DNA of 64,000 nt from Chloroflexota bacterium (lineage in GTDB: Bacteria; Chloroflexota; Dehalococcoidia; Dehalococcoidales; JACQON01). A program made the translations under genes and the position numbers. The stretch is from contig JACQON010000028.1 of NCBI GenBank assembly GCA_016202545.1, forward strand, positions 62,001-126,000, given 5' to 3'. Of this stretch, positions 20,723 to 63,143 are shown one piece after another. How positions within the stretch are numbered: the first letter of the stretch is position 1; each line of letters starts with the position of its first letter. The notes beneath the pieces were generated by a model that was not told the origin of the DNA, made no database searches, and saw only the letters and a program-made list of their open reading frames with translations.

Positions 20723-21592
20723 TTAATGGCTGTCTTCTGCCGTCGTTGAGGTTGGTTCTATGGCTTTCAGGGTGCGTGCTTGCATGCAGACGGGGCAATT
20801 GATAAGGCACCAGCCGCACTGGCCGAAGACGGCTCCCGAGGTAATCGCTGCCATGTTCAGCCGGGAAGAGCTCCCCAGGAATATGTTTTTTCTCACCCCG
20901 GGGTCAGGTTCGTTGGCTGCTTCCAGCAGCGTTCGCAGCCACGAGCTGGCGGACTCGGTCTGCGCCCTGGTAGTGCATATCCTGCGGTCATACCTCATCC
21001 ATTTTATCCTCTCACCTTCTATTTCCCCGGAGAGGCATTCCGGGCAGATGTCAAGGCAGGGAGTGGTGCGGTGCTTTTCCCATAGCTTGACGCAGGACGG
21101 GTGGGGGCAGACCGGCTCCGTCATGGGGCCATCTGCCTTGAGCGGCATGGTGGTGATGCAGATGGAAAAGCTTGGCATGCCGAGCTTTGGGTTGAGCACC
21201 ATGGCAGCCGCCAGTGAGCGGGTGCCCAGGCCGGCCATCTCGGCGCACAGCTTGTGGCTCAGGCAGGGGTTAAAGCCCAGCGATGGCGGTGTCTCCGCCA
21301 GGGAATAATAGCCGTAGCGGGACTCGATCAACCGGGATACGGCTGCGGCGGCGCTGAGCCGGATGCGAGGAAAATCTCTGTTATAGTAGTGGGTGCGGTG
21401 GTCTGGGCTGTGCCAGGCTCCCTGAAAGGCAGAATACCCGGCCAGGACGACCACGCTTTTGGCCCCGATAAGGATGTCATCGGGACGGTGACCCGGTGGG
21501 GCATAGTGGTTTATGTCCGCCACCGAGGCGATGCCGGCGGCGTCAGCCCCTTTCTGCAGGGCAAACTGCTTTATTTCCTCCTCTGCGTTCAT
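20723..21592 (-). CDS. QueG (epoxyqueuosine reductase)-like Fe-S protein, paralog 1
   Basis: ALQKGADAAGIASVADINHY, CLDICPECLSG, CGWCLINCPVC. Confidence 0.6.
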   Translation of the reverse strand: MNAEEEIKQFALQKGADAAGIASVADINHYAPPGHRPDDILIGAKSVVVLAGYSAFQGAWHSPDHRTHYYNRDFPRIRLSAAAAVSRLIESRYGYYSLAETPPSLGFNPCLSHKLCAEMAGLGTRSLAAAMVLNPKLGMPSFSICITTMPLKADGPMTEPVCPHPSCVKLWEKHRTTPCLDICPECLSGEIEGERIKWMRYDRRICTTRAQTESASSWLRTLLEAANEPDPGVRKNIFLGSSSRLNMAAITSGAVFGQCGWCLINCPVCMQARTLKAIEPTSTTAEDSH

Positions 21593-21597
21593 AATGT

Positions 21598-21876
21598 TCA
21601 GCCTTTCTTGAAGTGCTTGCGGGCCTTCTCCCGCTTCCAGTTATCAGACTCCAGCCAGGCATCGGCGGGCAGGAGGTCAATCTCGGCTATACACCGGATT
21701 TCAGTAACGTCCTCTACATCCAGACCAAGCCGGTCGGCTATCTCCTGGTCGGAGAGGCTGCTGGTTTCCCTTACTGCCGTGGTGCCCTCGTAGCACTGGA
21801 TGGCCAGCCCCATCTCCAGGATTTGGCGCGCGTATTTGTTGTACAGTTCGGGCGAAACGTATTTAGCCATTGGCAT
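21598..21876 (-). CDS. Small conserved-looking protein with HTH-like segment
   Basis: 92 aa; SLSDQEIADRLGLDVEDVTEIRCIAE resembles a helix-turn-helix; lies between paralogs. Confidence 0.6.
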   Translation of the reverse strand: MPMAKYVSPELYNKYARQILEMGLAIQCYEGTTAVRETSSLSDQEIADRLGLDVEDVTEIRCIAEIDLLPADAWLESDNWKREKARKHFKKG

Positions 21877-22750
21877 CCACCTCCTTGGGCGCGTCTACCG
21901 TAGCCTGGACCGTATTTTTCACTCTGATGGTGCGGGCCTCGATGCATACGGGGCAATTTCTGGTGCATTCAAAGCATTGGGCATAGTAAGTGCTGGCGGC
22001 GACCATCTCAAACACGCGCTGGGTGAAGCTTCCCAGGAGGATGCTCCGCCTCATGCCGGCATCGGGTTCGTTAGCCGCCTCCCGCAATGCCCTCAGCAGT
22101 GCGGACGGACCTTCGGTCATCGCCCGGGTGGCGCATATCCTGCGGTCATACCGCATCCATTTTATCCGTCCCTCTGCTATCTCTCCGGAAAGGCACTGAT
22201 GGCAGGCATCCAGGCAAGGAGTGGTGTGGCGCTTTTCCCACAGCTTGACGCAGGACGGGTGGGGACAGACCGGCTCCGTCATCGGGCCATCGGCTTTGAG
22301 CGGCATGGTGGTGATGCAGGCGCCGATGCTGAGCATGCCCACTTTGGGATTGAGGATGATGCCGGCGGCCATGGACCGGGTGCCCAGGCCGGCCATCTCG
22401 GCGCACAGCTTCAGGCTCAGGCTGGGGTTCAGGCCGATGTCCGGTATCTGGTAGACTGAATAGTAGCCGTACTCGGACTCGATGAACTGGGCGACGGCGG
22501 TGGCAATGCCGGGAAGGATGCCCCAGACGTTATTGTAGTACGGGGTGCGGTAATCGGAGCTATACCAGGCACCCTTGACCAGGCGCGTCTTGGAGAAGGT
22601 AATCACGCTCTTGGCGCCGGTAAGGATGTCATCGGGACGGTGGCCCGGTGGAGCATACCGGTTTATGTCCGCTACCGAGGCAATGCCAACCAGGTCAGCT
22701 CCTTGCTGCACGGCAAACTGCTTGACCTCTTCCTCCAGTGTCATCTTCAA
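21863..22750 (-). CDS. QueG (epoxyqueuosine reductase)-like Fe-S protein, paralog 2
   Basis: AVQQGADLVGIASVADINRYAPPGHRPDDIL, CLDACHQCLSG, CFECTRNCPVC. Confidence 0.6.
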   Translation of the reverse strand: MKMTLEEEVKQFAVQQGADLVGIASVADINRYAPPGHRPDDILTGAKSVITFSKTRLVKGAWYSSDYRTPYYNNVWGILPGIATAVAQFIESEYGYYSVYQIPDIGLNPSLSLKLCAEMAGLGTRSMAAGIILNPKVGMLSIGACITTMPLKADGPMTEPVCPHPSCVKLWEKRHTTPCLDACHQCLSGEIAEGRIKWMRYDRRICATRAMTEGPSALLRALREAANEPDAGMRRSILLGSFTQRVFEMVAASTYYAQCFECTRNCPVCIEARTIRVKNTVQATVDAPKEVDANG

Positions 22751-51373: not shown

Positions 51374-51535
51374 ACCCATCCCCCTTTGTCCCCTTTCCTT
51401 TGGGGAATTGGTGAAGGGAAGGGGGAGTCAGTATAAAGAGGGGGCGAAGCCCCCTCTTTCCAAATCTCCCCTTCTCCTGCTCAGGAGAAGGGGACAAAGG
51501 GGATGAGGTCACACTTGCAATGACAGAGTGTTACT
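51374..51535 (-). repeat. Intergenic repeat family B, copy 3 (inverted), joined to a family A end
   Basis: aaagagggggcgaagccccctcttt, ccccttctcctgctcaggagaagggg, then gcaatgacagagtgttactaaa as at 6768-6788. Confidence 0.8.
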
Positions 51536-51558: not shown

Positions 51559-51587
51559 TTGACAAAAACCCGGCTGGCGGCTTAAAG
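51559..51587 (+). promoter_or_regulatory. Candidate promoter of the PreA-like/AOR cluster
   Basis: TTGACA - 17 bp - TTAAAG (weak -10). Confidence 0.35.
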
Positions 51588-51661
51588 TTCCATTACAGGT
51601 GTACTATCAGGTAGTGGTGGGGAGGCGGAAGACTGAAGTCCGAGAAAGGGGAGAGCCAGAC

Positions 51662-52852
51662 ATGGCAGACTTGCGGGTAAAATTCGCCGGCGTGGAGTTT
51701 AAGAACCCCATAGTGGCTTCGGCGGGGCATATAACCCACAGCCCTTACACTATGAAAAGGTGCATTGAGGCCGGAGTCGGCGCCATATGCACCAAGAGCA
51801 TCAGCGTTGACGCCGAGTCGTGGAAGAGGCCGCACCCGGCCAACTGGTTCCTGGACAAGCAGGGCGACCCTGGCAGCGTGCTGACCTGCGAGGTGGGGTT
51901 CTGGCCGCCGGAGCTGGCCGTGCAGTATATACAGGAGATGAGACCGCTGGCCGATGAAGAAAACGTCAGGCTCATCGCCAATATCGATGTGCCGCCTTTC
52001 ACCGAAGACGAGCTTGCCGGAGTAGCCCGAAGATTGGAGGAAGCGGGAGCCGACATGATTGAGGCCACCTGTCCCTGTCCTATCATGATGCCCAGCAGGG
52101 AAGACGTTAATGCATGGTACAGGGAGCAGGTCTCCAGGTTCCTGAAGGCTTTGAAGCGGGCAGTGAGCATCCCGGTGTTCCCCAAGATGTCTTCGGAGTT
52201 TCTCACCGATGAGAATATCAAGATTATCGAAGACTCCGGCGCCGACGCCCACTGTTTCTGGGTGGGGTTGCCGGGTACCGCTGTTGACGTGGAGACGGGA
52301 AGGCCGGTGATGCCCTCTACCAGCCTGTATTTCGGCCGGGCCCTCAAAGGATTGGGCTGCTACATGTCCTCTATGCTGGCGATAAAAGGCAATTTGCCTA
52401 TAATGAGCAGCGGCGGCATCTCCACGTGGAGAGATGCCGTGGAAAGCCTGATGTGCGGCACTACGCTGGTCGGCGTCCAGACGGCGGTGATGTACCGCGG
52501 CTACAAAGTGCTTGTGGACATGACCAGGGGACTGGGCAGCTTCATGGACAGCAAGGGCTACCGGCGGGTGGATGATATAATCGGCATCGCCGCCCGCCAC
52601 ATAGAGAACAGCGCCGAGTTCGAGCAGTTTGTCAGCCAGAAGCAGGTCGACAGGGAAGCGGTAATGATAACCGTTGACCCGGTATTATGCAACGGCTGCG
52701 GTAGATGTCTCACCTGCTGTCACGGTGCAATTACCATGGAAGAGGGCCTCGCCCGGATAGACCTGGAGCGCTGCGAGCGCTGCGGCATATGCCAGTCAAT
52801 CTGCCCGGTGAGGGCGATAGCCATCGGGGCGATTGAAGAGGTGCGGCGTTAG
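51662..52852 (+). CDS. Dihydroorotate/dihydropyrimidine dehydrogenase (PreA)-like flavoprotein with C-terminal 2x[4Fe-4S]
   Basis: LRVKFAGVEFKNPIVASAGHITHS, IEATCPCP, CNGCGRCLTCCHGAI, CERCGICQSICPVRAI. Confidence 0.88.
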   Translation: MADLRVKFAGVEFKNPIVASAGHITHSPYTMKRCIEAGVGAICTKSISVDAESWKRPHPANWFLDKQGDPGSVLTCEVGFWPPELAVQYIQEMRPLADEENVRLIANIDVPPFTEDELAGVARRLEEAGADMIEATCPCPIMMPSREDVNAWYREQVSRFLKALKRAVSIPVFPKMSSEFLTDENIKIIEDSGADAHCFWVGLPGTAVDVETGRPVMPSTSLYFGRALKGLGCYMSSMLAIKGNLPIMSSGGISTWRDAVESLMCGTTLVGVQTAVMYRGYKVLVDMTRGLGSFMDSKGYRRVDDIIGIAARHIENSAEFEQFVSQKQVDREAVMITVDPVLCNGCGRCLTCCHGAITMEEGLARIDLERCERCGICQSICPVRAIAIGAIEEVRR

Positions 52853-52976
52853 CGATGCGGCAATCTCCGCAGTCAAGATGTGAAACTCGAAATCTCAGAT
52901 TATACGAGGCTGTCCCGCCTGGCCAAATGACGGCGGGGTTTGCCGGCCTCGCCTTACGGAAAGGAGGCAGGGGAAT

Positions 52977-53291
52977 ATGGCAGAGCAGCACCGGGTTATC
53001 TATGAAGTGGAGGAGGTGAGAGGAAGCTGCCCGGTCTACAAGGTTGGTGACAAGGTGGTAATAGACTCCAGGCATCCGGTGGAAGTACTGAACCTTGAAA
53101 AAACTGACGCGCTGTGCATGAGGATAATCGACAATATGTGGTCGCAGAAGGTGTGGCAGGCGGGGGGCAATGCCACCGTGGAGCATCTCACCGGCATATC
53201 CGGCGAATGCCGCATAGGGTGCTCCATGCCGGGCAAGCCATATACGCCCTGCGGATTCATCATCTTCAAAATCAGAAGAGAAAAACTATAG
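52977..53291 (+). CDS. TIGR04076-like small protein
   Basis: VIYEVEEVRGSCPVYKVGDKVVI. Confidence 0.7.
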   Translation: MAEQHRVIYEVEEVRGSCPVYKVGDKVVIDSRHPVEVLNLEKTDALCMRIIDNMWSQKVWQAGGNATVEHLTGISGECRIGCSMPGKPYTPCGFIIFKIRREKL

Positions 53292-53336
53292 CTGCTGGCC
53301 GTGGGCTATCAGCTATAGCAGCGGAGGTGAGAGACA

Positions 53337-53984
53337 ATGGCATGGGAGACCAAATTTCCTGAGGATTCCGATACTCAGTATCCGCCTGAGGAGTACCGCC
53401 CGGATAAATTTCACTATCCCTGGCCGGGACATAAGGTGCTGGTAACCGTGGAAAGGGTATACGGTTGCTGCCCGGTAACCGTTGAAGGCGACAGGATGAT
53501 GTTCAGCGATGTCGCCAGCCCGGTGTTTGACGAATGTGACATATCCAGCGATTCGCCGCTGTTTCTGGGCAGCACGGTCAAGGGCACCAGAACGGGCACC
53601 CTTTGTACCGTGGCCCTGAAGGCGATATACCCTTATATCATAGCCATGGACTACGGGGTAAGCGCCGTAGACCTGGGCATCGCTGAGAGCGGTGAGGACG
53701 GTTTTATTGTCTGCGCCGCCTGGGGGCCTCCCAACTGCGAGGCGCAGGTCATCTTCAGGCTGCACCCCATCCCGGTGGAGAAATGCGGCACCGACATGCT
53801 GTACGAGTACCTGGCCCAGGCCGGGCACGTGGGTGTGCCATCGTATTATCTGGAGACCTTTGCCAGCGACGCCACCAAGGAGGAGCGGAAGCGTAAGATA
53901 GAGGAGTGGAAGAAGGCCGGCAAGCCCAAATTCTGGGAGGGCTGGAGGAATCCGCCGTGTCAGCCCAGGCGAAAGGATGCCTAG
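53337..53984 (+). CDS. Larger TIGR04076-related protein
   Basis: VLVTVERVYGCCPVTVEGDRMMF resembles upstream neighbour; 215 aa. Confidence 0.55.
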   Translation: MAWETKFPEDSDTQYPPEEYRPDKFHYPWPGHKVLVTVERVYGCCPVTVEGDRMMFSDVASPVFDECDISSDSPLFLGSTVKGTRTGTLCTVALKAIYPYIIAMDYGVSAVDLGIAESGEDGFIVCAAWGPPNCEAQVIFRLHPIPVEKCGTDMLYEYLAQAGHVGVPSYYLETFASDATKEERKRKIEEWKKAGKPKFWEGWRNPPCQPRRKDA

Positions 53985-54002
53985 TTGTCACAGGAGGGAA
54001 AC

Positions 54003-55241
54003 GTGAAGCTGGAAAACGAATTTGCCCTGGTCGGAGCTACCCTGATTGACGGAAATGGCGGCCCTCCGCGCCGGGACGTCACCATCATGGTGAAGGACGG
54101 CGTGATTCAGAAGGTAGCCGCCGGCAAAAGGGGGGTAAAGTCGGGGCCGCGGCTGCAGCGGGTTGACCTGGACGGACGCTTTGTCATGCCCGGGTTGATA
54201 GACAGTCATCTCCACTTTACCGGCACCGCCAGCGACGACCCCGTAACCTGGCTCAGTGAGCCGAACTACCTGAGGGCGATAAGGACGGTGGCCCAGGCCC
54301 ACAAGGTGCTCGATTTCGGCTTCACCACGGTAAGGTGCTGCGGCTCAAGATGCGACGTCTATTTGAGGCAGGCCATCGAGGAGGGAACGGTAGCCGGCCC
54401 CAGGATAGTGGCCTGCGGACTGGGCATTTGCCGGACGGGGGGACACGGGGATATACGCCGGGACATCTACCAGGTTTCCGATGAGGTGCTCAACGAGACC
54501 CATCCCTGGGCGCAGCGGTGCGATGGAGTGGAAGAGATTCGCAAGGCGGTGCGGCGGCTGATAAACCAGGGGGTTGATTTTATCAAGTTCTGGATGTCAG
54601 GCGGCGATGCCTGGGAGAAGGACAGGAACGATGACGTGCACTTCACCCCGGAAGAGGCCGGCGCCATAGTGCAGGAGGCGCACATGTGCCGGCTGAAAGT
54701 CGCCGCTCACTGTGAGAATATCCGGGCCATTAAAGCCGCCATCGAGGTCGGAGTGGACACCATTGAGCATGCCGATATGATTGCCGGTGCGCCGGGGCTG
54801 GACGAGGAAACTTGCCGACGTCTGGTAAAGAAAAATATCATCATCGTGCCCACGCTCTCCGTCTATTTTGTCGGCGCCTGGGCGGTAAAGGCCCTGCCGC
54901 AGAACGTTGTTGATAGCTACAAGCTGGCAATCAAGAGCGGAGTGAAGCTTGCCCTGGGGACGGACGCCTTTGCCGACCGCGTTACACCCTATGGCCAATA
55001 CAATGCCGGAGAGCTAAAGCTGATGACGGATATTCTGGGATTGACACCCATGCAGGCCATCGTGTCGGCGACCAAAGTAGGCGCAGAGGCAGTCGGCCTT
55101 CAGGACAGGGTTGGCACGGTAGAGGAAGGCAAGCTGGCAGACCTGCTTGTCCTCAAAGGAAATCCGGCGGAGGACATCGCCGTGCTCCTGGACCGGGACA
55201 ACATTGAGCACGTAATAAAGCAGGGGAAACTGGTCAGATAA
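54003..55241 (+). CDS. Amidohydrolase (imidazolonepropionase/prolidase-like)
   Basis: DGRFVMPGLIDSHLHFTG, VAAHCENIRAIKAAIEVGVDTIEHA, ALGTDAF; GTG start after CAGGAGGG. Confidence 0.88.
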   Translation: MKLENEFALVGATLIDGNGGPPRRDVTIMVKDGVIQKVAAGKRGVKSGPRLQRVDLDGRFVMPGLIDSHLHFTGTASDDPVTWLSEPNYLRAIRTVAQAHKVLDFGFTTVRCCGSRCDVYLRQAIEEGTVAGPRIVACGLGICRTGGHGDIRRDIYQVSDEVLNETHPWAQRCDGVEEIRKAVRRLINQGVDFIKFWMSGGDAWEKDRNDDVHFTPEEAGAIVQEAHMCRLKVAAHCENIRAIKAAIEVGVDTIEHADMIAGAPGLDEETCRRLVKKNIIIVPTLSVYFVGAWAVKALPQNVVDSYKLAIKSGVKLALGTDAFADRVTPYGQYNAGELKLMTDILGLTPMQAIVSATKVGAEAVGLQDRVGTVEEGKLADLLVLKGNPAEDIAVLLDRDNIEHVIKQGKLVR

Positions 55242-55301
55242 GAAGACCGGGGACATGCGTACAGAGAAGCCCGACCGGAGACAAAGGAGGAGGTGTGACG
55301 T

Positions 55302-56789
55302 ATGGCGCTTCTTGAAGAGCCGATAAAAGAGGTAATGCAGCTTAAGAACTTCATCGCCGGTGAATGGGTTGAGTCCAAAGGCGAGCTTCAGGACGTGGTG
55401 AACCCGGCCACCTGTCAGCCGCTGGCCAGGGTGCCGATGTCAACCAGGGACGAGGTCAATGCCGCAGTGCAGGCGGCCAGGGAGGCTTTCCCTGACTGGA
55501 GGCGGACGACCCCGCTGGCCAGGGTGAGGTGCCTGTTCAGGCTCAAAGAGCTGCTGGAGGAGCATTTTGAGGAGCTGAGCCGGGTCCAGACACAGGAGCA
55601 TGGCAAGACCATTGATGAATCGAGAGGGGAGACCAGGCGCGGCGCCGAAATGGTTGAGGTCGCTACCGGGATTCCCTCCCTGATGATGGGATATAACCTG
55701 GAGGACATCGCCAGCGGCATCGACGAGTATGTCATATACCAGCCGCTGGGTGTCTTCTGTCATATCGCGCCTTTCAATTTTCCGTTCATGGTGCCGCTGT
55801 GGTTCTCGCCTTTCGCCGTGGCCACCGGAAACACCTTCGTGGTGAAACCCTCTCCCAGGGACCCTATCAGCCAGGTGAAGCTGGCCGAGCTGATAGATGA
55901 GTCTGGCTTTCCGCCCGGCGTGTACAATCTTGTCCAGGGGGGCGCGGAGGCGGCGCTGGCCTTGCTGGAGCACCCGGATGTCAAAGGGGCCACTTTTGTT
56001 GGCACCACCGGGATAGGGAAGGACGTCTACCGGAAGTGCGGCGAAACGGGCAAGAGGGCGATTGTCCAGGCCAGCGCCAAAAACTTTTTGCTGGTGATGC
56101 CGGATGCCAGCGTGCAGGGGACAATGCCAGCCCTGATGACGTCCTTCTTCGGCAACACCGGCCAGAGATGTCTCTCCGGGGCCAACCTGGTCATCGTGGG
56201 CGATGATGACGCCTTCTACCGGAAGTTCCTGGACGCCTTTGTTAATACCGCCTCCAGGATAAGGGTGGGCTACGGCCTTGACGAGTCCATCCAGATGGGG
56301 CCGATGCAGTCACTGGACGGCAAAAAGAGGGTGCTGGGATACATAGAAAAGGGGATAGCGGAAGGGGCCAGGCTTGTCCTGGATGGCAGGAAGCCGGCGG
56401 TCATCGGCGGTTATCCTGACGACCATTTCCTCAATCCCACCGTCTTCGTGGATGTCATGCCTGACATGGCTATCGCCACGGAGGAAATCTTCGGCCCGGT
56501 GGCCTGCGTGTTGCGGGTCAAGAATCTCGACGAAGCCATAGAGATGGTGAACAGCAGCAATTTTGGCAATGCTAGCTCCATTTTCACCTCGAGTGGCAAG
56601 GCGGCCAGGGAATTCCAGTACCGGGTTGAGACCGGCAATGTGGGCATAAACCTGGGCATAGTCGCTCCCATGGCCTTCTTCCCCTTCAGCGGCATGAAGG
56701 ACTCCTTCTTCGGTACCCTACACGGGCAGGGCCGGGATGCCGTCCGCTTCTTCACCGAGAGCAAGGTCGTCGTTCAGAGGTGGCTATAG
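55302..56789 (+). CDS. (Methyl)malonate-semialdehyde dehydrogenase-like ALDH
   Basis: NFIAGEWVESKGELQDVVNPATCQPLARVP, FFGNTGQRCLSG. Confidence 0.88.
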   Translation: MALLEEPIKEVMQLKNFIAGEWVESKGELQDVVNPATCQPLARVPMSTRDEVNAAVQAAREAFPDWRRTTPLARVRCLFRLKELLEEHFEELSRVQTQEHGKTIDESRGETRRGAEMVEVATGIPSLMMGYNLEDIASGIDEYVIYQPLGVFCHIAPFNFPFMVPLWFSPFAVATGNTFVVKPSPRDPISQVKLAELIDESGFPPGVYNLVQGGAEAALALLEHPDVKGATFVGTTGIGKDVYRKCGETGKRAIVQASAKNFLLVMPDASVQGTMPALMTSFFGNTGQRCLSGANLVIVGDDDAFYRKFLDAFVNTASRIRVGYGLDESIQMGPMQSLDGKKRVLGYIEKGIAEGARLVLDGRKPAVIGGYPDDHFLNPTVFVDVMPDMAIATEEIFGPVACVLRVKNLDEAIEMVNSSNFGNASSIFTSSGKAAREFQYRVETGNVGINLGIVAPMAFFPFSGMKDSFFGTLHGQGRDAVRFFTESKVVVQRWL

Positions 56790-57233
56790 ATGGAGCTGAA
56801 TACCACCTCCCAGGTCGTCAGCTTCGCCAGGGACCTTGAGGAGCTCGGCGCCAGGTTCTATGAAAGCCTGACCCGGCGGCATTCCGGCGACGCGGAGGTC
56901 TGGCGGCACCTTGCCAGCGAGAACAGGAAGAACGTGACACAGGTTGAGCGGGCATACTACGGGGTCATTAGTGACGCCCTCGAGGGCTGTTTTTCCTTTG
57001 CCATAGACCCGGACAAGTACGCTATTGAGGCTGAGCCAGCCGGTGGTGCTAGCTATCATGAGACTGTGAAAAGGGCGGTCGAGATGGAGGAGAAAATCGT
57101 CAGGTTCTACCTGGAGGCGGCGGAACAATCGAAGTCTTTGATGGCGGATGTTCCCCATGCCTTCACCCTGGTGGCAAAGAAGAGGAACAGCCGCATACCA
57201 AAGCTGATGGCCCTACTGGGCAAGGAGGGCTGA
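56790..57233 (+). CDS. Ferritin-like/rubrerythrin-like protein, degenerate metal site
   Basis: FARDLEELGARFYESLTRR...EMEEKIVRFYLEAAEQS helices. Confidence 0.6.
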   Translation: MELNTTSQVVSFARDLEELGARFYESLTRRHSGDAEVWRHLASENRKNVTQVERAYYGVISDALEGCFSFAIDPDKYAIEAEPAGGASYHETVKRAVEMEEKIVRFYLEAAEQSKSLMADVPHAFTLVAKKRNSRIPKLMALLGKEG

Positions 57234-57428
57234 ATGGCCGACGTGGTGGAAAAACGGCGCGTTCATTGCGCCCGGAGACACGTCAGCGTCTTCGTGGTCA
57301 GGTGGGACAACGGCAGCTTCAGCATCAAGTGCAGCCTGCTCAAAGCCTGCGGCGATTCCTGTCCCTACCTGGAAAATCCCGATTATAAGAGCGAGTTCAG
57401 GAGCTCTCCGGAGTATAAGCCCGGGTAG
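57234..57428 (+). CDS. 64-aa Cys-containing small protein
   Basis: Immediately follows previous stop (tgaatg); CARRHVSVFVVRWDNGSFSIKCSLLKACGDSCPY. Confidence 0.65.
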   Translation: MADVVEKRRVHCARRHVSVFVVRWDNGSFSIKCSLLKACGDSCPYLENPDYKSEFRSSPEYKPG

Positions 57429-57470
57429 CTCTGGGCTGCCTTTGTGGGTGTTCGAAAGGGGGGTGACACT

Positions 57471-58745
57471 ATGAATACAGTGGAGAAATACCGGGAGTAC
57501 GTGAATACCAGCATGCTTACGGGCGTTGTGCCGGTGGTGTTTGAGCGGGCCGAGGGGGCAACGGTATTCGGCGAGGATGGGCGTAAATACCTGGACTGCT
57601 TCGCCGGAATCTCGGTTACCAACGCCGGGCACGGTAATCCCGAGGTGCTTGATGCCGCCAGGGCCCAGCTTGGCAGGTATGTCCATTGCTGCTCCTATGT
57701 CTATTACAATAAGCCCATGGCTGACCTGGCGGAAAAGCTGGCGCGGATTACGCCGGGCCGGCTGAAGAAGTCCTTTTTCACTAGCGGCGGCGCCGAGGCC
57801 ATGGAAGGCGCGATGCGGATGGCCAAGACATATACCGGGAAGCGCGAGTTCATCGCCCTCCAGGCTTCCTTTCACGGCCGCACCTATGCCACCCTGAGCA
57901 TAACCGGCAACTGCGCCCGCAAGAAGCGGGCCGGGCCGTATATGCCGGGGGTCAGCTTTGCACCGGTCCCCTACTGCTACCGGTGCGCCTTCGGCCTGGA
58001 GCCGGAGACCTGCGGGACGCGCTGCGCCGAGTATGTGGAGGACATTATCCGGTTCGATACCTACAATGACATCGCCGCCTTCGTCGCCGAGCCGGTGCTG
58101 GGTGAGGGCGGCATTATCGTCCCGCCCGAGCCGTACTTCAAGAAGGTGAAGGAGGTGCTCGACCGCCACGGCATCCTGCTCTTTATTGACGAGGTGCAGA
58201 CGGGGTTTGCCAGGACGGGCAAGATGTTCGCCATAGAGCACTATGGCGTTGAGCCTGACATAATGGCTATGGCCAAGGGAATCGCCAACGGCTTCCCGCT
58301 GGGCGCTTTCATCGCTCCGGATGATATTGCCGATAGTTTCCAGCCCGGCGAGCACCTGAGCACCTTTGGCGGTAACCCGGTCAGTTGCGCCGCGGGGCTG
58401 GCCAGCATCAACTTCCTGGAGCGGGAGAAGATGGCCGACCAGGCCACGGCGAAGGGAAACCGGTTCAAAGAAGGGCTGAACAAGTTAAGGGCGAAGCACC
58501 CGGTTATTGGCGATGTGCGGGGCAAGGGCCTGATGATAGGCGTGGAGTTGGTCAAGGATAAGGCGAAGACGCCGGCGTCCAACGAGGCCGCCGCCGTCCG
58601 CAAAAGCTGCCTGGAAAAGGGGCTGCTTATCGGGCTGGGGGGAGTCCTGGGCAATGTCCTGAGGATACAGCCCCCGCTGGTCATCGGCGAGGCCCAGCTC
58701 GAGGAGGCCCTGGCCATAGTGGACAAGTCCTTGGCGGAATTGTAA
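57471..58745 (+). CDS. Class III aminotransferase (omega-amino acid type) 1
   Basis: LDCFAGISVTNAGHGNPEV, LFIDEVQTGFARTGKMFA, MAKGIANGFPLGAF. Confidence 0.9.
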   Translation: MNTVEKYREYVNTSMLTGVVPVVFERAEGATVFGEDGRKYLDCFAGISVTNAGHGNPEVLDAARAQLGRYVHCCSYVYYNKPMADLAEKLARITPGRLKKSFFTSGGAEAMEGAMRMAKTYTGKREFIALQASFHGRTYATLSITGNCARKKRAGPYMPGVSFAPVPYCYRCAFGLEPETCGTRCAEYVEDIIRFDTYNDIAAFVAEPVLGEGGIIVPPEPYFKKVKEVLDRHGILLFIDEVQTGFARTGKMFAIEHYGVEPDIMAMAKGIANGFPLGAFIAPDDIADSFQPGEHLSTFGGNPVSCAAGLASINFLEREKMADQATAKGNRFKEGLNKLRAKHPVIGDVRGKGLMIGVELVKDKAKTPASNEAAAVRKSCLEKGLLIGLGGVLGNVLRIQPPLVIGEAQLEEALAIVDKSLAEL

Positions 58746-58811
58746 GCTTATGTAGCACGGCCGCACGTCCTTTGCTGAGTCAGGCGGTTGATATGTCAAA
58801 GGGGGGAAGAT

Positions 58812-60152
58812 ATGGCAAAGAAAGTGCCCAATATAGTAACTCCGCCGCCCGGACCGGAAGCCTTGAAGTGGATACAGCGGGACAATGAAAAAATGGCCCC
58901 CTATAACCGGCCGTTTTACTATCCGCTGGTCGTGGCCGGTGGCGAAGGGGCCGTAGTGCGCGATGTTGATGGGAATGAGTATATTGACTGGAACTCCGGG
59001 CTGGGCGTTCTGAACGTCGGCCAGTGCCACCCCAGGATAATCAACGCCATGATGAACAAGGCGAAGGACTTCATGCATTACTCCTACACCGACTTCCGTT
59101 TCAGGGAGCCGGTTGAGATGGCCGACAGGCTGGATCAACTCCTGCCCATGAAGTGCAAGTATTTCTTCGCCAATAGTGGCACTGAAGCCAATGAGGCTGC
59201 CCTGAAGATAGCGCGTCACTCCACCAGGAAGCAGCTGTTCATCGGCTTCATCGGCTCGTTTCATGGGAGGACCTTCGGGACGATGGCTTTTTCCTCTACG
59301 TCTCTGGCGCAGAGGCGCCGCTTTCATCCGCTGATGCCCGGGGTGACCCTGGTCCCATATCCCTATTGCTACCGGTGCCCCTATAAACTTGAATATCCTG
59401 GCTGCGACCTGTGGTGCGTTGACTTCATAGAGGAGTGGGTATTGCAGAAGTTCGTGCCGCCGGACGAGGTGGCCGGCTTCCTCTTCGAGTCCATTGCCGG
59501 AGAGGGCGGCTACATAGTGCCTCCCCCTGAGTTTTTGCCCCGGCTAAAGCGGCTTGCCGATAAATATGGGATGCTGCTGATAGATGATGAGATTCAGGTG
59601 GGCTGCGGGCGCACCGGGAAGTTCCTGGCCATAGAGCACTGGGGCGTCGTCCCCGATATAGTGACCCTGGGCAAGGCTGTCGGCGGCGGCGTGCCGCTGT
59701 CGATTGCCGCCGCCAGGAAAGACGTGATGGACTTGCCCCCGGGGGCGCACTGCACCACCACCGGGGGAAATCCCGTTGCCTGCGCCGCCGGGATGGCCTT
59801 TCTCGATATACTCTTAGAGGAGAACCTGATGCGGAAGGCTACGGAGCTTGGTGACTATACCCTGGACCGGCTGAAGGATATGCAGGCAAAGTACCAGGTC
59901 ATCGGTGACGTCAGGGGGAAGGGGCTGGCCATCTGCATCGAGCTGGTCAAGGACCGGAAGACCAAGGAGCCTGTAGACAGCAAGGACTTCATCGGCAGGC
60001 TGTTCAGGAAAGGCGTCCTGGCCGTTTCCGGCGGCGTTGGGGTCAGGATATTCCCGCCGCTTATTATCTCCAGGGAGATGATGGACTCCAGCCTGGACAT
60101 ACTGGAGGCAACGGTCGAGGAAGTGAACCGGGAATACCATGGGGAAAATTGA
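58812..60152 (+). CDS. Class III aminotransferase (omega-amino acid type) 2
   Basis: IDWNSGLGVLNVGQCHPRI, LLIDDEIQVGCGRTGKFLA, LGKAVGGGVPLS. Confidence 0.9.
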   Translation: MAKKVPNIVTPPPGPEALKWIQRDNEKMAPYNRPFYYPLVVAGGEGAVVRDVDGNEYIDWNSGLGVLNVGQCHPRIINAMMNKAKDFMHYSYTDFRFREPVEMADRLDQLLPMKCKYFFANSGTEANEAALKIARHSTRKQLFIGFIGSFHGRTFGTMAFSSTSLAQRRRFHPLMPGVTLVPYPYCYRCPYKLEYPGCDLWCVDFIEEWVLQKFVPPDEVAGFLFESIAGEGGYIVPPPEFLPRLKRLADKYGMLLIDDEIQVGCGRTGKFLAIEHWGVVPDIVTLGKAVGGGVPLSIAAARKDVMDLPPGAHCTTTGGNPVACAAGMAFLDILLEENLMRKATELGDYTLDRLKDMQAKYQVIGDVRGKGLAICIELVKDRKTKEPVDSKDFIGRLFRKGVLAVSGGVGVRIFPPLIISREMMDSSLDILEATVEEVNREYHGEN

Positions 60153-60177
60153 CAGGCGCCACGGGGCGCGGTAGCGT

Positions 60178-61923
60178 GTGGAGGGGCAGGTGTACGGTTT
60201 TTATAACAAAGTGTTGCACATTGACCTGGGCCGGAGGTCGTTCGAGGAAAAGGCCGTTGACGACCAGGTCTATGCCAGTCTGCTGGGAGGCAAAGGGCTG
60301 GGCACCTATCTCCTGCTCAATAATACCAGGGCTGGCCTTGACCCGCTATCGGCGGATAACGCGGTGATTTTTGCCACCGGCCCGGTCGCTGGTACCAGGG
60401 TCTTCGGCTCTTCCAGGTACGGAGTGTACACCAAGTCCCCCTTGACTGATAGATACCTGGAGTCCTATGCCGGAGGCAGCGTGGCTGACCCCCTGAGCCG
60501 GACCGGCTACGATGCCATCGTGATAAAGGGGGCTTCCGATGTCCCCGTTTTTCTGGAGATTTCCGAGTATGAGGTTCAACTCCGTGACGCTGCTCACCTC
60601 TGGGGCAAGGATACCTACCAGGCGGAGGATGCCATTCGAGAGCAGGTGGGGGTAAAGGGTGCCGGAGTGGTGGTGATTGGCCCCGCCGGGGAAAACCTGG
60701 TGAAGTTTGCCGTGGTGGAAAACGACTACTGGAGGTCGGTAGGCAGGGGCGGCGTTGGGGCGGTGCTGGGGTCGAAGAAAGTCAAGGGCATCGCCTTCTA
60801 CGGTGACAGGAGGAGGGAAATAGCCGATGAGGACTTGCTTAACGGCTTTTGCAGCCGGACGGCCATCCAGGGTAAGTCCCATCCCTCGGCGATAGCTTTC
60901 AGGACGCTGGGCACGCCCATGATGGTGGCCACGGCCAATAAGATAGGCGCCTTTCCCACCCGCTACTGGTCTTCGGGCACAGTCGACGGCTGGCAGAACC
61001 TGACCGCCGAGGCCTTGAAGGAGAAGTGCAAGGTTAAACCAAAGACATGCCCGAAGTGCTTTATGGCCTGCGGCAAGCTGACCGAGGTCGTTGACGGAAG
61101 GCACCAGGGGTTGATAATTGAAGGGCCTGAATACGAGACGATTTATGCCTTCGGCGGGCTATGCATGGTCGGTGACTTGCGGGAGATTGCCTATCTTAAC
61201 GACATCTGCGATAGGCTGGGTATGGATACCATGACCGCCGGCAATCTGGCTGCCTTCACCATGGAGGCCTGCCACAGAAAAGCGGTGGACGAGCACATCG
61301 AGTACGGCGATGTTGACGCCATTGCCGAGATGCTGCACAAGATTGCCCGCAGGGAAGGAATCGGCGCCATTCTGGCTGAAGGTATCAGGCACGCCAGCAA
61401 ACAGTGGGGACTGGAAGACCTGGCGGTCCATGTTAAAGGTATGGAGCCGGCGGGCTATGACCCCCGGGTCCTGAAGGGGATGGGGCTGGCCTATGCCACC
61501 GCAGACAGGGGGGCATGCCATCTCAGGGCAACCGTCTATAAAGCGGAGCTTTCCGGCATGATACCTCCGGAGCAGGTGGAGGGCAAGGCTGAGATATTTA
61601 TTGACTTTGAGGATAGGCATACTCTTTTCGATGCCCTGACCATCTGCCGCTTCTTCCGGGACCTGTATTCCTGGGAGGACATGGAACTGATAGTAAGGGC
61701 CACCACCGGCATGGAGGTGGACAAGAAGAAGCTGCAGGGAATAGCTGCCAACATCCTGAATAAGGCCAGGGAATTCAATATCCGCGAAGGTATGAAAGTG
61801 GAAGAGGACAGGCTGCCCGAGCGGTTCTTCACCAAGAAGCTCGATAACAGCGGCAAGGTGCTGCTGAGGGCCGAGATGGATAAGATGGTCTCCGACTATT
61901 ATAAGCTCAGGGGCTGGGCTTGA
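60178..61923 (+). CDS. Aldehyde:ferredoxin oxidoreductase (AOR family, tungsten type)
   Basis: KVLHIDLGRRSFEEKAV, SSRYGVYTKSPLTDRYLESYAGGSV, CPKCFMACGKL. Confidence 0.93.
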   Translation: MEGQVYGFYNKVLHIDLGRRSFEEKAVDDQVYASLLGGKGLGTYLLLNNTRAGLDPLSADNAVIFATGPVAGTRVFGSSRYGVYTKSPLTDRYLESYAGGSVADPLSRTGYDAIVIKGASDVPVFLEISEYEVQLRDAAHLWGKDTYQAEDAIREQVGVKGAGVVVIGPAGENLVKFAVVENDYWRSVGRGGVGAVLGSKKVKGIAFYGDRRREIADEDLLNGFCSRTAIQGKSHPSAIAFRTLGTPMMVATANKIGAFPTRYWSSGTVDGWQNLTAEALKEKCKVKPKTCPKCFMACGKLTEVVDGRHQGLIIEGPEYETIYAFGGLCMVGDLREIAYLNDICDRLGMDTMTAGNLAAFTMEACHRKAVDEHIEYGDVDAIAEMLHKIARREGIGAILAEGIRHASKQWGLEDLAVHVKGMEPAGYDPRVLKGMGLAYATADRGACHLRATVYKAELSGMIPPEQVEGKAEIFIDFEDRHTLFDALTICRFFRDLYSWEDMELIVRATTGMEVDKKKLQGIAANILNKAREFNIREGMKVEEDRLPERFFTKKLDNSGKVLLRAEMDKMVSDYYKLRGWA

Positions 61924-61948
61924 ACTGCTTGGGCGTCGGCAGGATTTT

Positions 61949-63103
61949 ATGAACTCCAGGCTTAATCGTCGTGTCAAGATAGTATGCACTCTGGGCCCTG
62001 CCAGCAGCACCCCCGAGGTGATTGAAGGGATGCTCGAGGCTGGCATGGATGTGGCGCGGCTTAATCTGGCCTATGGCACTCAGGAGGAGCACTCCCGGCT
62101 CATCGCCGAAGTCCGCCGGCTCAGCGAGAAGCTGGCACTTCCCACCGGCATACTCCTCGACCTCCCCGGCCTGAAGCGCCGCAGCGGGGACATCAGAGCG
62201 GTATTCGGCGGCGACCTTGATTTCGCCCTGTCTCAGAAGGCCGATTTCATCGCCCTGTCTTTCATCTCTTCGGCGCAGCAGGTAATTGAGGTCAAGAGGA
62301 TGCTGGGTGAGATGAGCGCCGATGTATCGCTGGTGGTCAAGATAGAGGAGGCAGCGGCACTGGAAGACAGCGCTGCCATCCTTGAAATCGGAGACGGGCT
62401 CATGGTAGCCAGGGGAGACCTGGCCCTGGAGATAAGCATCGAGAAAGTGCCCCTGGCCCAGAAGCGGCTTATACGGGATGCGAACTATCGTGGTAGGCCG
62501 GTAATAACGGCCACCCAGATGCTTGAGTCCATGGCCCGTTCGCCTGCCCCGACCAGGGCGGAAGCGGCCGATGTGGCCAATGCCATTCTCGATGGCACCG
62601 ATGCCGTGATGCTGTCTGAGGAAACTGCCATCGGCAGCTACCCAGTCGAAGCTGTCCAGATGATGGCCAGGATAGCCGTGGAAGCTGAGACTGCGCTGCC
62701 GTATCAGCAGATACTTCACGAGCGGTGGCAGCACGCTCCCCCTGAAGTCAACGATGCCACCGCCGGTGCCGCCTGCCAGATTGCCCACCAGATACAGGCC
62801 AGAGCGATTGTAGCCTTTACCGCCGGCGGGACTACGGCGTTACGGGTGTCCAAATACCGGCCGCGCCAGCCGGTGCTGGCGGTGACGCCGTCGGATAAGA
62901 TAGTGAGGCGCCTTTCCCTGGCCTGGGGAGTCCTGCCGGTGAGAAAACCAGACACGGCGAACCTGGAGCAAGTTTTCGACCTAGCGCGGGTGGTAGCCCT
63001 GGAGACAGGGGCAGCCAAAAGCGGTGACCTGCTGGTGGTCACCGCCGGCATCCCTCTTAGCTTCGCCGGGAGCACTAATCTGGTCAAGGTGCACCGCGTT
63101 TGA
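61949..63103 (+). CDS. Pyruvate kinase-like protein lacking the B domain
   Basis: KIVCTLGPASSTPEVIEGMLEAGMDVARLN, GLMVARGDLALEI, PVITATQMLESM, DVANAILDGTDAVMLSEET; 384 aa. Confidence 0.88.
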   Translation: MNSRLNRRVKIVCTLGPASSTPEVIEGMLEAGMDVARLNLAYGTQEEHSRLIAEVRRLSEKLALPTGILLDLPGLKRRSGDIRAVFGGDLDFALSQKADFIALSFISSAQQVIEVKRMLGEMSADVSLVVKIEEAAALEDSAAILEIGDGLMVARGDLALEISIEKVPLAQKRLIRDANYRGRPVITATQMLESMARSPAPTRAEAADVANAILDGTDAVMLSEETAIGSYPVEAVQMMARIAVEAETALPYQQILHERWQHAPPEVNDATAGAACQIAHQIQARAIVAFTAGGTTALRVSKYRPRQPVLAVTPSDKIVRRLSLAWGVLPVRKPDTANLEQVFDLARVVALETGAAKSGDLLVVTAGIPLSFAGSTNLVKVHRV

Positions 63104-63109
63104 CATACA

Positions 63110-63143
63110 GATAGAGGACAGGCCAGCCTGTCCTCTATCGTTT
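63110..63143 (+). terminator. Intrinsic terminator ending the catabolic cluster
   Basis: GATAGAGGACAGG-CCAG-CCTGTCCTCTATC perfect 13-bp stem then GTTTG. Confidence 0.8.

Follow-up and report, generated by a model that had tools for sequence, protein, structure and literature searches.

A candidate anaerobic catabolic gene cluster in a Dehalococcoidia genome that joins a divergent PreA-like flavoprotein to a semialdehyde dehydrogenase and its conserved partner proteins

Does a run of eleven genes in a metagenome-assembled Dehalococcoidia genome encode a variant of reductive pyrimidine catabolism, some other anaerobic degradation route, or no single pathway at all? The genes lie in a stretch of 64,000 nucleotides, here called the window (contig JACQON010000028.1 of assembly GCA_016202545.1, positions 62,001 to 126,000), from an assembly of 1.74 Mb that is 88% complete, and the listing of open reading frames (ORFs) of the window places 11 of them, all on the plus strand, between positions 51,662 and 63,103. 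The original prediction, made from the bare sequence, had read them as a novel or variant pathway in which ring reduction is followed by ring opening, transamination, and oxidation. To the extent that sequence alone can decide, the block is not a pathway for the breakdown of uracil or thymine. Our preferred reading, which we hold tentatively and with somewhat less than even confidence, is a genuine, probably cotranscribed catabolic cluster that was built in its lineage from modules occurring separately elsewhere. From the predicted pathway we would keep the same-strand catabolic cluster and the chemistry that leads from an aminotransferase (AT) to a (methyl)malonate-semialdehyde dehydrogenase (MMSDH), in which an arginine pair is kept, and would give up the idea of one conserved pathway.

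The gaps between the eleven genes, read 5' to 3', are 124, 45, 0, 60, 0, 0, 42, 66, 25, and 25 nt, so that the compact spacing described earlier (mostly 0 to 65 nt) is borne out by the coordinates with a full range of 0 to 124 nt. Family searches matched all of the enzyme classes that had been named: DHO_dh with Fer4 for the PreA-like protein, Amidohydro_1 for an amidohydrolase, Aldedh for the MMSDH, Aminotran_3 for each of two omega-transaminases, AFOR_N and AFOR_C for an aldehyde:ferredoxin oxidoreductase (AOR), and PK with PK_C for a pyruvate kinase (PK)-like protein. The other four ORFs are small or unnamed.

The first gene (51662..52852, plus strand, as are all genes of the block) encodes a PreA-like flavoprotein with a dihydroorotate dehydrogenase (DHOD) fold (PF01180, 76.8 bits) and two [4Fe-4S] motifs (Fer4). 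Its best-scoring NCBIfam model is that of PreA (NF006183), yet it reaches 160.5 bits against an equivalog cut-off of 335. The catalytic cysteine is kept: C139 aligns with the cysteine of the N-x-x-C-P motif in canonical PreA and with the cysteine of pig dihydropyrimidine dehydrogenase (DPD) that we take to be the catalytic Cys671. The residues that presumably contact the pyrimidine, judging from DPD, are replaced, with NIE becoming CEV, INT becoming HCFWVG, and the asparagine of NxxCP gone (ATCPCP). In a 66-row tree the protein forms a clade only with those of two loci in other genomes, L037 and L039 (SH-aLRT 100), separate from the canonical PreA clade (33 rows, support 99) and from the PyrD proteins. 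When GTDB representative contigs were scanned with two short peptide patterns, only L038 and L039 exceeded 35% identity; the PreA-like protein of L038 is the same as that in genome G099, and the gene surroundings of both loci differ from those of the window.

The remaining parts of the canonical route were sought as well. Neither PreT, which was looked for in the block only and not genome-wide, nor a C-N hydrolase is present in the block, and a search of the 88%-complete assembly for dihydropyrimidinase (TIGR02033) was negative at E<=1e-5, the control having matched in 14 of 14 genomes. The original prediction had remarked that PreT, a typical dihydropyrimidinase, and beta-ureidopropionase were not visible, and these searches agree with it; the close parallel that it drew with reductive pyrimidine catabolism is contradicted by the replaced active-site motifs, the missing dihydropyrimidinase, and the low PreA score. 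Reductive pyrimidine clusters (PreT-PreA, dihydropyrimidinase, beta-ureidopropionase, transaminase, and MMSDH) resemble the block in clustering a PreA homologue, an amide hydrolase, a class III transaminase, and an MMSDH, but the block has lost the pyrimidine contacts, lacks PreT, takes its hydrolase from another family, sits in an assembly without a dihydropyrimidinase, and carries as extras a second transaminase, the AOR, and TIGR04076-like genes. On active-site residues, tree placement, and the genome search for dihydropyrimidinase, the canonical pathway was rejected.

Neighborhoods of related genes hint at a link to amide hydrolysis. PreA-like paralogues of the same order directly adjoin C-N hydrolases at three loci (L158, L229, and L231), one of which (L158) also holds an AOR; the originally proposed pairing of a PreA-like protein with an amide hydrolase, and in part with an AOR, recurs outside the window. 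At L228 the adjoining gene is for a hydrolase of the isochorismatase type, at L230 and L235 for an amidohydrolase, and on contig C30 of the host genome itself (L156) a C-N hydrolase lies near a PreA-like gene. Three C-N hydrolases, all adjacent, were counted in 13 PreA-like loci, compared with 1 in 292 control ORFs; because this test was devised after the pattern had been seen and two of the loci (L229 and L231) belong to one genome, the enrichment is suggestive only. Within that limit, the neighborhoods favor the general idea of the original prediction that PreA-like proteins of this kind work in concert with amide hydrolysis. Beyond the copy in the block, the host genome has PreA-like paralogues at three loci (L155 to L157, on contigs C14, C30, and C34), with about 30% identity; their neighbors are an OYE-type reductase, a nitrilase-family protein together with TRAP transporters, and UbiD plus a crotonase. 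On a deltaproteobacterial contig (L044, 2462-5735), an AOR, a 100-aa protein that by eye is MoaD/ThiS-like, and a PreA-like protein stand in a row, an arrangement that resembles the AOR association of L158.

The aldehyde dehydrogenase (ALDH) in the middle of the block (55302..56789) is assigned to the CoA-acylating (methyl)malonate-semialdehyde dehydrogenase type. It matches TIGR01722 over 480 residues with 510.5 bits against a cut-off of 448.5 and aligns with the Bacillus subtilis enzyme (1t90) at 469 bits, and in alignment with IolA and other MMSDHs it keeps R113, R289, and the catalytic C290. We take the arginine pair to be what holds the carboxylate of the substrate in enzymes of the IolA type. 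Orthologues with 63-68% identity occur in 5 Dehalococcoidia genomes spanning several families, and in all five a homologue (40-54% identity) of the next protein of the window, a 147-aa ferritin-like protein of an unnamed family (56790..57233), follows directly 3' of the ALDH; at L213, the sole more distant ALDH (56%) viewed in context, it does not. No family model matches the 147-aa protein above its cut-off (PF13668 gives 17.4 bits against 24.7), and its profile matches the ferritin-like TM1526 (PDB 1vjx) weakly, with E 0.001. Across the family Glu17, Glu44, and Glu100 are invariant and the ExxH histidine ligands of a di-iron site are lost; a single-sequence structure prediction gave a pLDDT of 47, too low for the model to be used. 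Among 111 genomes sampled across the phylum, only this one had a member of the family.

Behind this pair lies a Cys-rich 64-aa protein (57234..57428, 65 codons with the stop), for which genome G212 has a 48% homologue (L210:10851-11039) directly behind its own ALDH and 147-aa genes, as in the window. Counting the copy in the window (55302-57428) together with L208 to L212, the order ALDH to 147-aa protein is seen in six genomes and the 65-codon ORF in two. The genes around the pair vary by genome and include UbiD, a MOFRL-type kinase, FAD oxidases, and crotonase-like genes. On these comparisons the 147-aa and 65-codon ORFs, which the original prediction had passed over, are conserved partners of the ALDH, the 147-aa protein being an undescribed one.

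Two class III transaminases and the AOR follow. The first (AT1, 57471..58745) and the second (AT2, 58812..60152) are covered over nearly their full length by PF00202, with 390 and 361 bits. AT1 is 42-43% identical to the AT, and the ALDH 49% identical to the MMSDH, of canonical pyrimidine-type clusters (L092 and L100). AT2 falls in the archaeal ornithine/omega-AT or racemase group, with 548.2 bits to NF004426 against a cut-off of 552; its nearest match in the PDB is 7vno (395 bits), followed by the alanine/serine racemase 9wqz, and its closest solved relatives comprise a Pyrococcus horikoshii-type class III enzyme, racemases, and isoleucine epimerase. The AOR (60178..61923) is of the tungsten type (AFOR_N, 237 bits; AFOR_C, 390 bits). 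It resembles tungsten AORs of known structure (PDB 9mqx and 1aor) over its full length, and alignment with 9mqx places the cluster cysteines (CxxCxxxC and a fourth Cys) and the active-site motifs GPEYE and CH(L/V)R; the difference is that no ferredoxin-like AOR partner gene adjoins it.

The hydrolase of the block (53985..55241; PF01979, 148 bits) is a binuclear amidohydrolase of the prolidase/ochratoxinase (cog1228) group. It shares with the cog1228 amidohydrolases of the PDB (3feq, 3mtw, and 4c5y) the subtype I binuclear metal ligands and an overall alignment match, the six ligands (HxH, Lys, His, His, Asp) aligning with those of the closest, 3feq, but it is distant from all of them (181 bits at best), and it has a glutamate where the HAY motif of 3feq has its tyrosine. 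The Xaa-Pro dipeptidase model NF051886 gives 257 bits, below its cut-off of 500. Orthologues (53-55% identity) were found only in genome G281, and one of them (L164, 10764-15040) has two homologues of MttB-family methyltransferases as neighbors, a hint that its setting there involves quaternary amines.

Between the PreA-like gene and the amidohydrolase lie two genes that had been described as a TIGR04076 pair. Remote similarity holds for both, and membership for neither: the 215-aa protein (53337..53984) has a TIGR04076-like domain that scores 29.8 bits against a cut-off of 33, and the 104-aa Cys protein (52977..53291) has no Pfam or NCBIfam match and aligns to the TIGR04076 alignment as a remote relative (hhalign probability 74%, E 2.9e-5). 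At E<=1e-12, none of the other genomes in a class sample of 294 yielded a homologue of the 215-aa protein, and TIGR04076 neighborhoods in relatives gave no recurring partner.

Put together under our preferred reading of one catabolic cluster, these families and residues would fit the following route, for which we infer both the substrate and the order of the steps. The amidohydrolase may hydrolyze an amide and free a beta- or omega-amino acid, which AT1 (or AT2, for other substrates) would transaminate to a semialdehyde. The MMSDH-type ALDH with its ferritin-like partner could then convert a carboxyl-bearing semialdehyde of the malonate or methylmalonate type to acetyl- or propionyl-CoA, CO2, and NADH, and the AOR may oxidize further aldehydes to acids while reducing ferredoxin. 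The PreA-like protein would transfer a hydride to or from some unsaturated nitrogen compound other than uracil or thymine, with ferredoxin as its likely electron partner because the cluster has no PreT. A characterized operon of Pseudomonas sp. AAC that encodes an omega-transaminase (KES23458) and a malonate-semialdehyde dehydrogenase of the MMSDH type (KES23460) converts beta-alanine to acetyl-CoA (PMC4907197). It is like the block in bringing a class III transaminase and an MMSDH-type dehydrogenase together and differs in being bicistronic, the block having the 147-aa and 64-aa ORFs between the two, plus seven other genes. A literature search on beta-alanine and AOR in Dehalococcoidia found nothing. 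Each enzyme family is a known one; what is new is how they are combined.

The last gene of the block (61949..63103; PF00224 and PF02887) encodes a pyruvate kinase, with 396.6 bits to TIGR01064 against a cut-off of 306, that lacks the B (lid) domain of roughly 90-100 residues. So do its six orthologues (63-73% identity), and the catalytic K, E, D, and T are kept. The 60 best PDB matches all possess the B domain, as judged by chain lengths of at least 470 residues, and a literature search on B-domain-less PK found nothing. The enzyme is the sole PK match at E <= 1e-60 in this genome and in most of the six other genomes of the class that hold the orthologues (L149 to L154), which lie in unrelated neighborhoods, in G071 beside phosphofructokinase and a DeoC/LacD aldolase. 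We conclude that it is probably the glycolytic PK of the organism, a housekeeping neighbor and not a pathway enzyme; with its orthologues in such contexts, the inclusion of this gene in the predicted pathway was rejected.

The signals described at the two ends of the block both exist in the sequence. TTGACA is present at 51559, with TAAAGT 18 nt 3' of it, but the region holds 13 promoter-like sites, against 4.5 +/- 2.2 in shuffles, and with such sites so common this single one is no evidence of a promoter by itself. The perfect 13-bp stem-loop at the other end (63110-63139, arms 63110-63122 and 63127-63139, assigned to no strand) is far stronger than in shuffled sequence (-24.8 kcal/mol, z -5.5); it had been called a terminator, but it lacks a T-tract and is absent from the predicted terminators. 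It lies between convergent genes. Since G+C content and G+C at third codon positions are roughly uniform across the eleven genes, composition does not support the import of the block in one piece by horizontal transfer. Just 5' of the block, an intergenic region (51381-51508), which may be a small mobile or repetitive element, carries inverted repeats nested in one another: one pair has perfect 15-nt arms separated by 92 nt, the other 27-nt arms matching at 78%. Farther away, at 20723-22750, two adjacent paralogous ORFs on the minus strand have near-identical starts (KGADAAGIASVADINHYAPPGHRPDDIL...).

Several observations weigh against one catabolic cluster. Synteny was queried with PreA in 60 order-level genomes, 294 class-level genomes, and GTDB representative contigs, and further with the 215-aa protein, the amidohydrolase, AT2, the ALDH, and PK; no sampled genome shares the block or its gene order, which is what the gene-neighborhood check had been proposed to decide, and the whole block is thus not seen as one conserved pathway. 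No other member of the host's family was among the genomes searched for relatives, and because the host is the sole genome of its family in the sample, the missing synteny is weak evidence either way. The cluster holds no transporter or regulator, the amidohydrolase occurs elsewhere beside MttB homologues, and the ALDH and 147-aa pair stands elsewhere without an adjoining transaminase, PreA, amidohydrolase, or complete AOR. The cluster seems to have been put together from modules that its relatives carry apart from one another.

The same facts feed a serious, if on balance unlikely, alternative in which two to four unconnected units merely happen to stand head to tail and no single pathway exists: PreA-like, TIGR04076-like, and amidohydrolase genes; ALDH with the 147-aa and 64-aa ORFs; AT1, AT2, and AOR; and PK alone. 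Modules are found apart elsewhere (ALDH and 147-aa protein in five genomes, the amidohydrolase by the MttB homologues, PK by itself), and the gaps of 124 nt (PreA to 104-aa gene) and 42-66 nt could accommodate internal promoters; set against this are the tight spacing on one strand, the confinement of a strong stem-loop to the 3' end, and the chemical compatibility of the enzyme classes. Quite unlikely is a fermentation of peptides or amino acids, in which the amidohydrolase would cut dipeptides or N-acyl amino acids, AT2 would act as an ornithine/omega-aminotransferase or racemase, the AOR would remove aldehydes, and the PreA-like protein would balance redox. The nearest solved relatives of the amidohydrolase (prolidase, carboxypeptidase, and ochratoxinase enzymes) and of AT2 suit such a scheme, but the arginine pair of the MMSDH indicates a carboxylated semialdehyde and not an amino acid-derived aldehyde, the dipeptidase equivalog score falls well short (257 of 500 bits), and the HAY tyrosine of 3feq is replaced. 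A variant of reductive pyrimidine catabolism, from uracil or thymine by way of beta-alanine or beta-aminoisobutyrate (BAIBA) to acyl-CoA, is strongly disfavored and highly improbable, for although PreA is the best NCBIfam model of the first gene and AT and MMSDH accompany PreA in canonical clusters, that gene scores 160 of 335 bits, has its contact motifs replaced, and lies outside the canonical PreA clade, in an 88%-complete genome with no dihydropyrimidinase match and a block with no PreT or C-N hydrolase.

The ALDH with its 147-aa partner and the divergent clade of PreA-like proteins are the parts that merit further attention. It is doubtful, but would be of consequence, that both are new at once: that the PreA-like clade (window, L037/L038, and L039) is a new class of ferredoxin-linked flavoenzymes acting on a nitrogen compound, and that the ALDH, together with its 147-aa and 64-aa proteins, represents a novel kind of dehydrogenase that forms acyl-CoA and has a ferritin-like protein as its dedicated partner. 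The constant pairing of ALDH and ferritin-like protein makes a small and directly testable system, and a lidless PK that is apparently the only one in several genomes raises the question of whether the lid is needed for glycolysis. Awareness that many PreA-like proteins of Dehalococcoidia are unlikely to be pyrimidine dehydrogenases would avert misannotation in a class that is abundant in anoxic sediments and is mostly known from uncultured genomes. If the new flavoenzyme class and the ALDH module both prove true, together they would make up an undescribed route of anaerobic degradation in the Dehalococcoidia.

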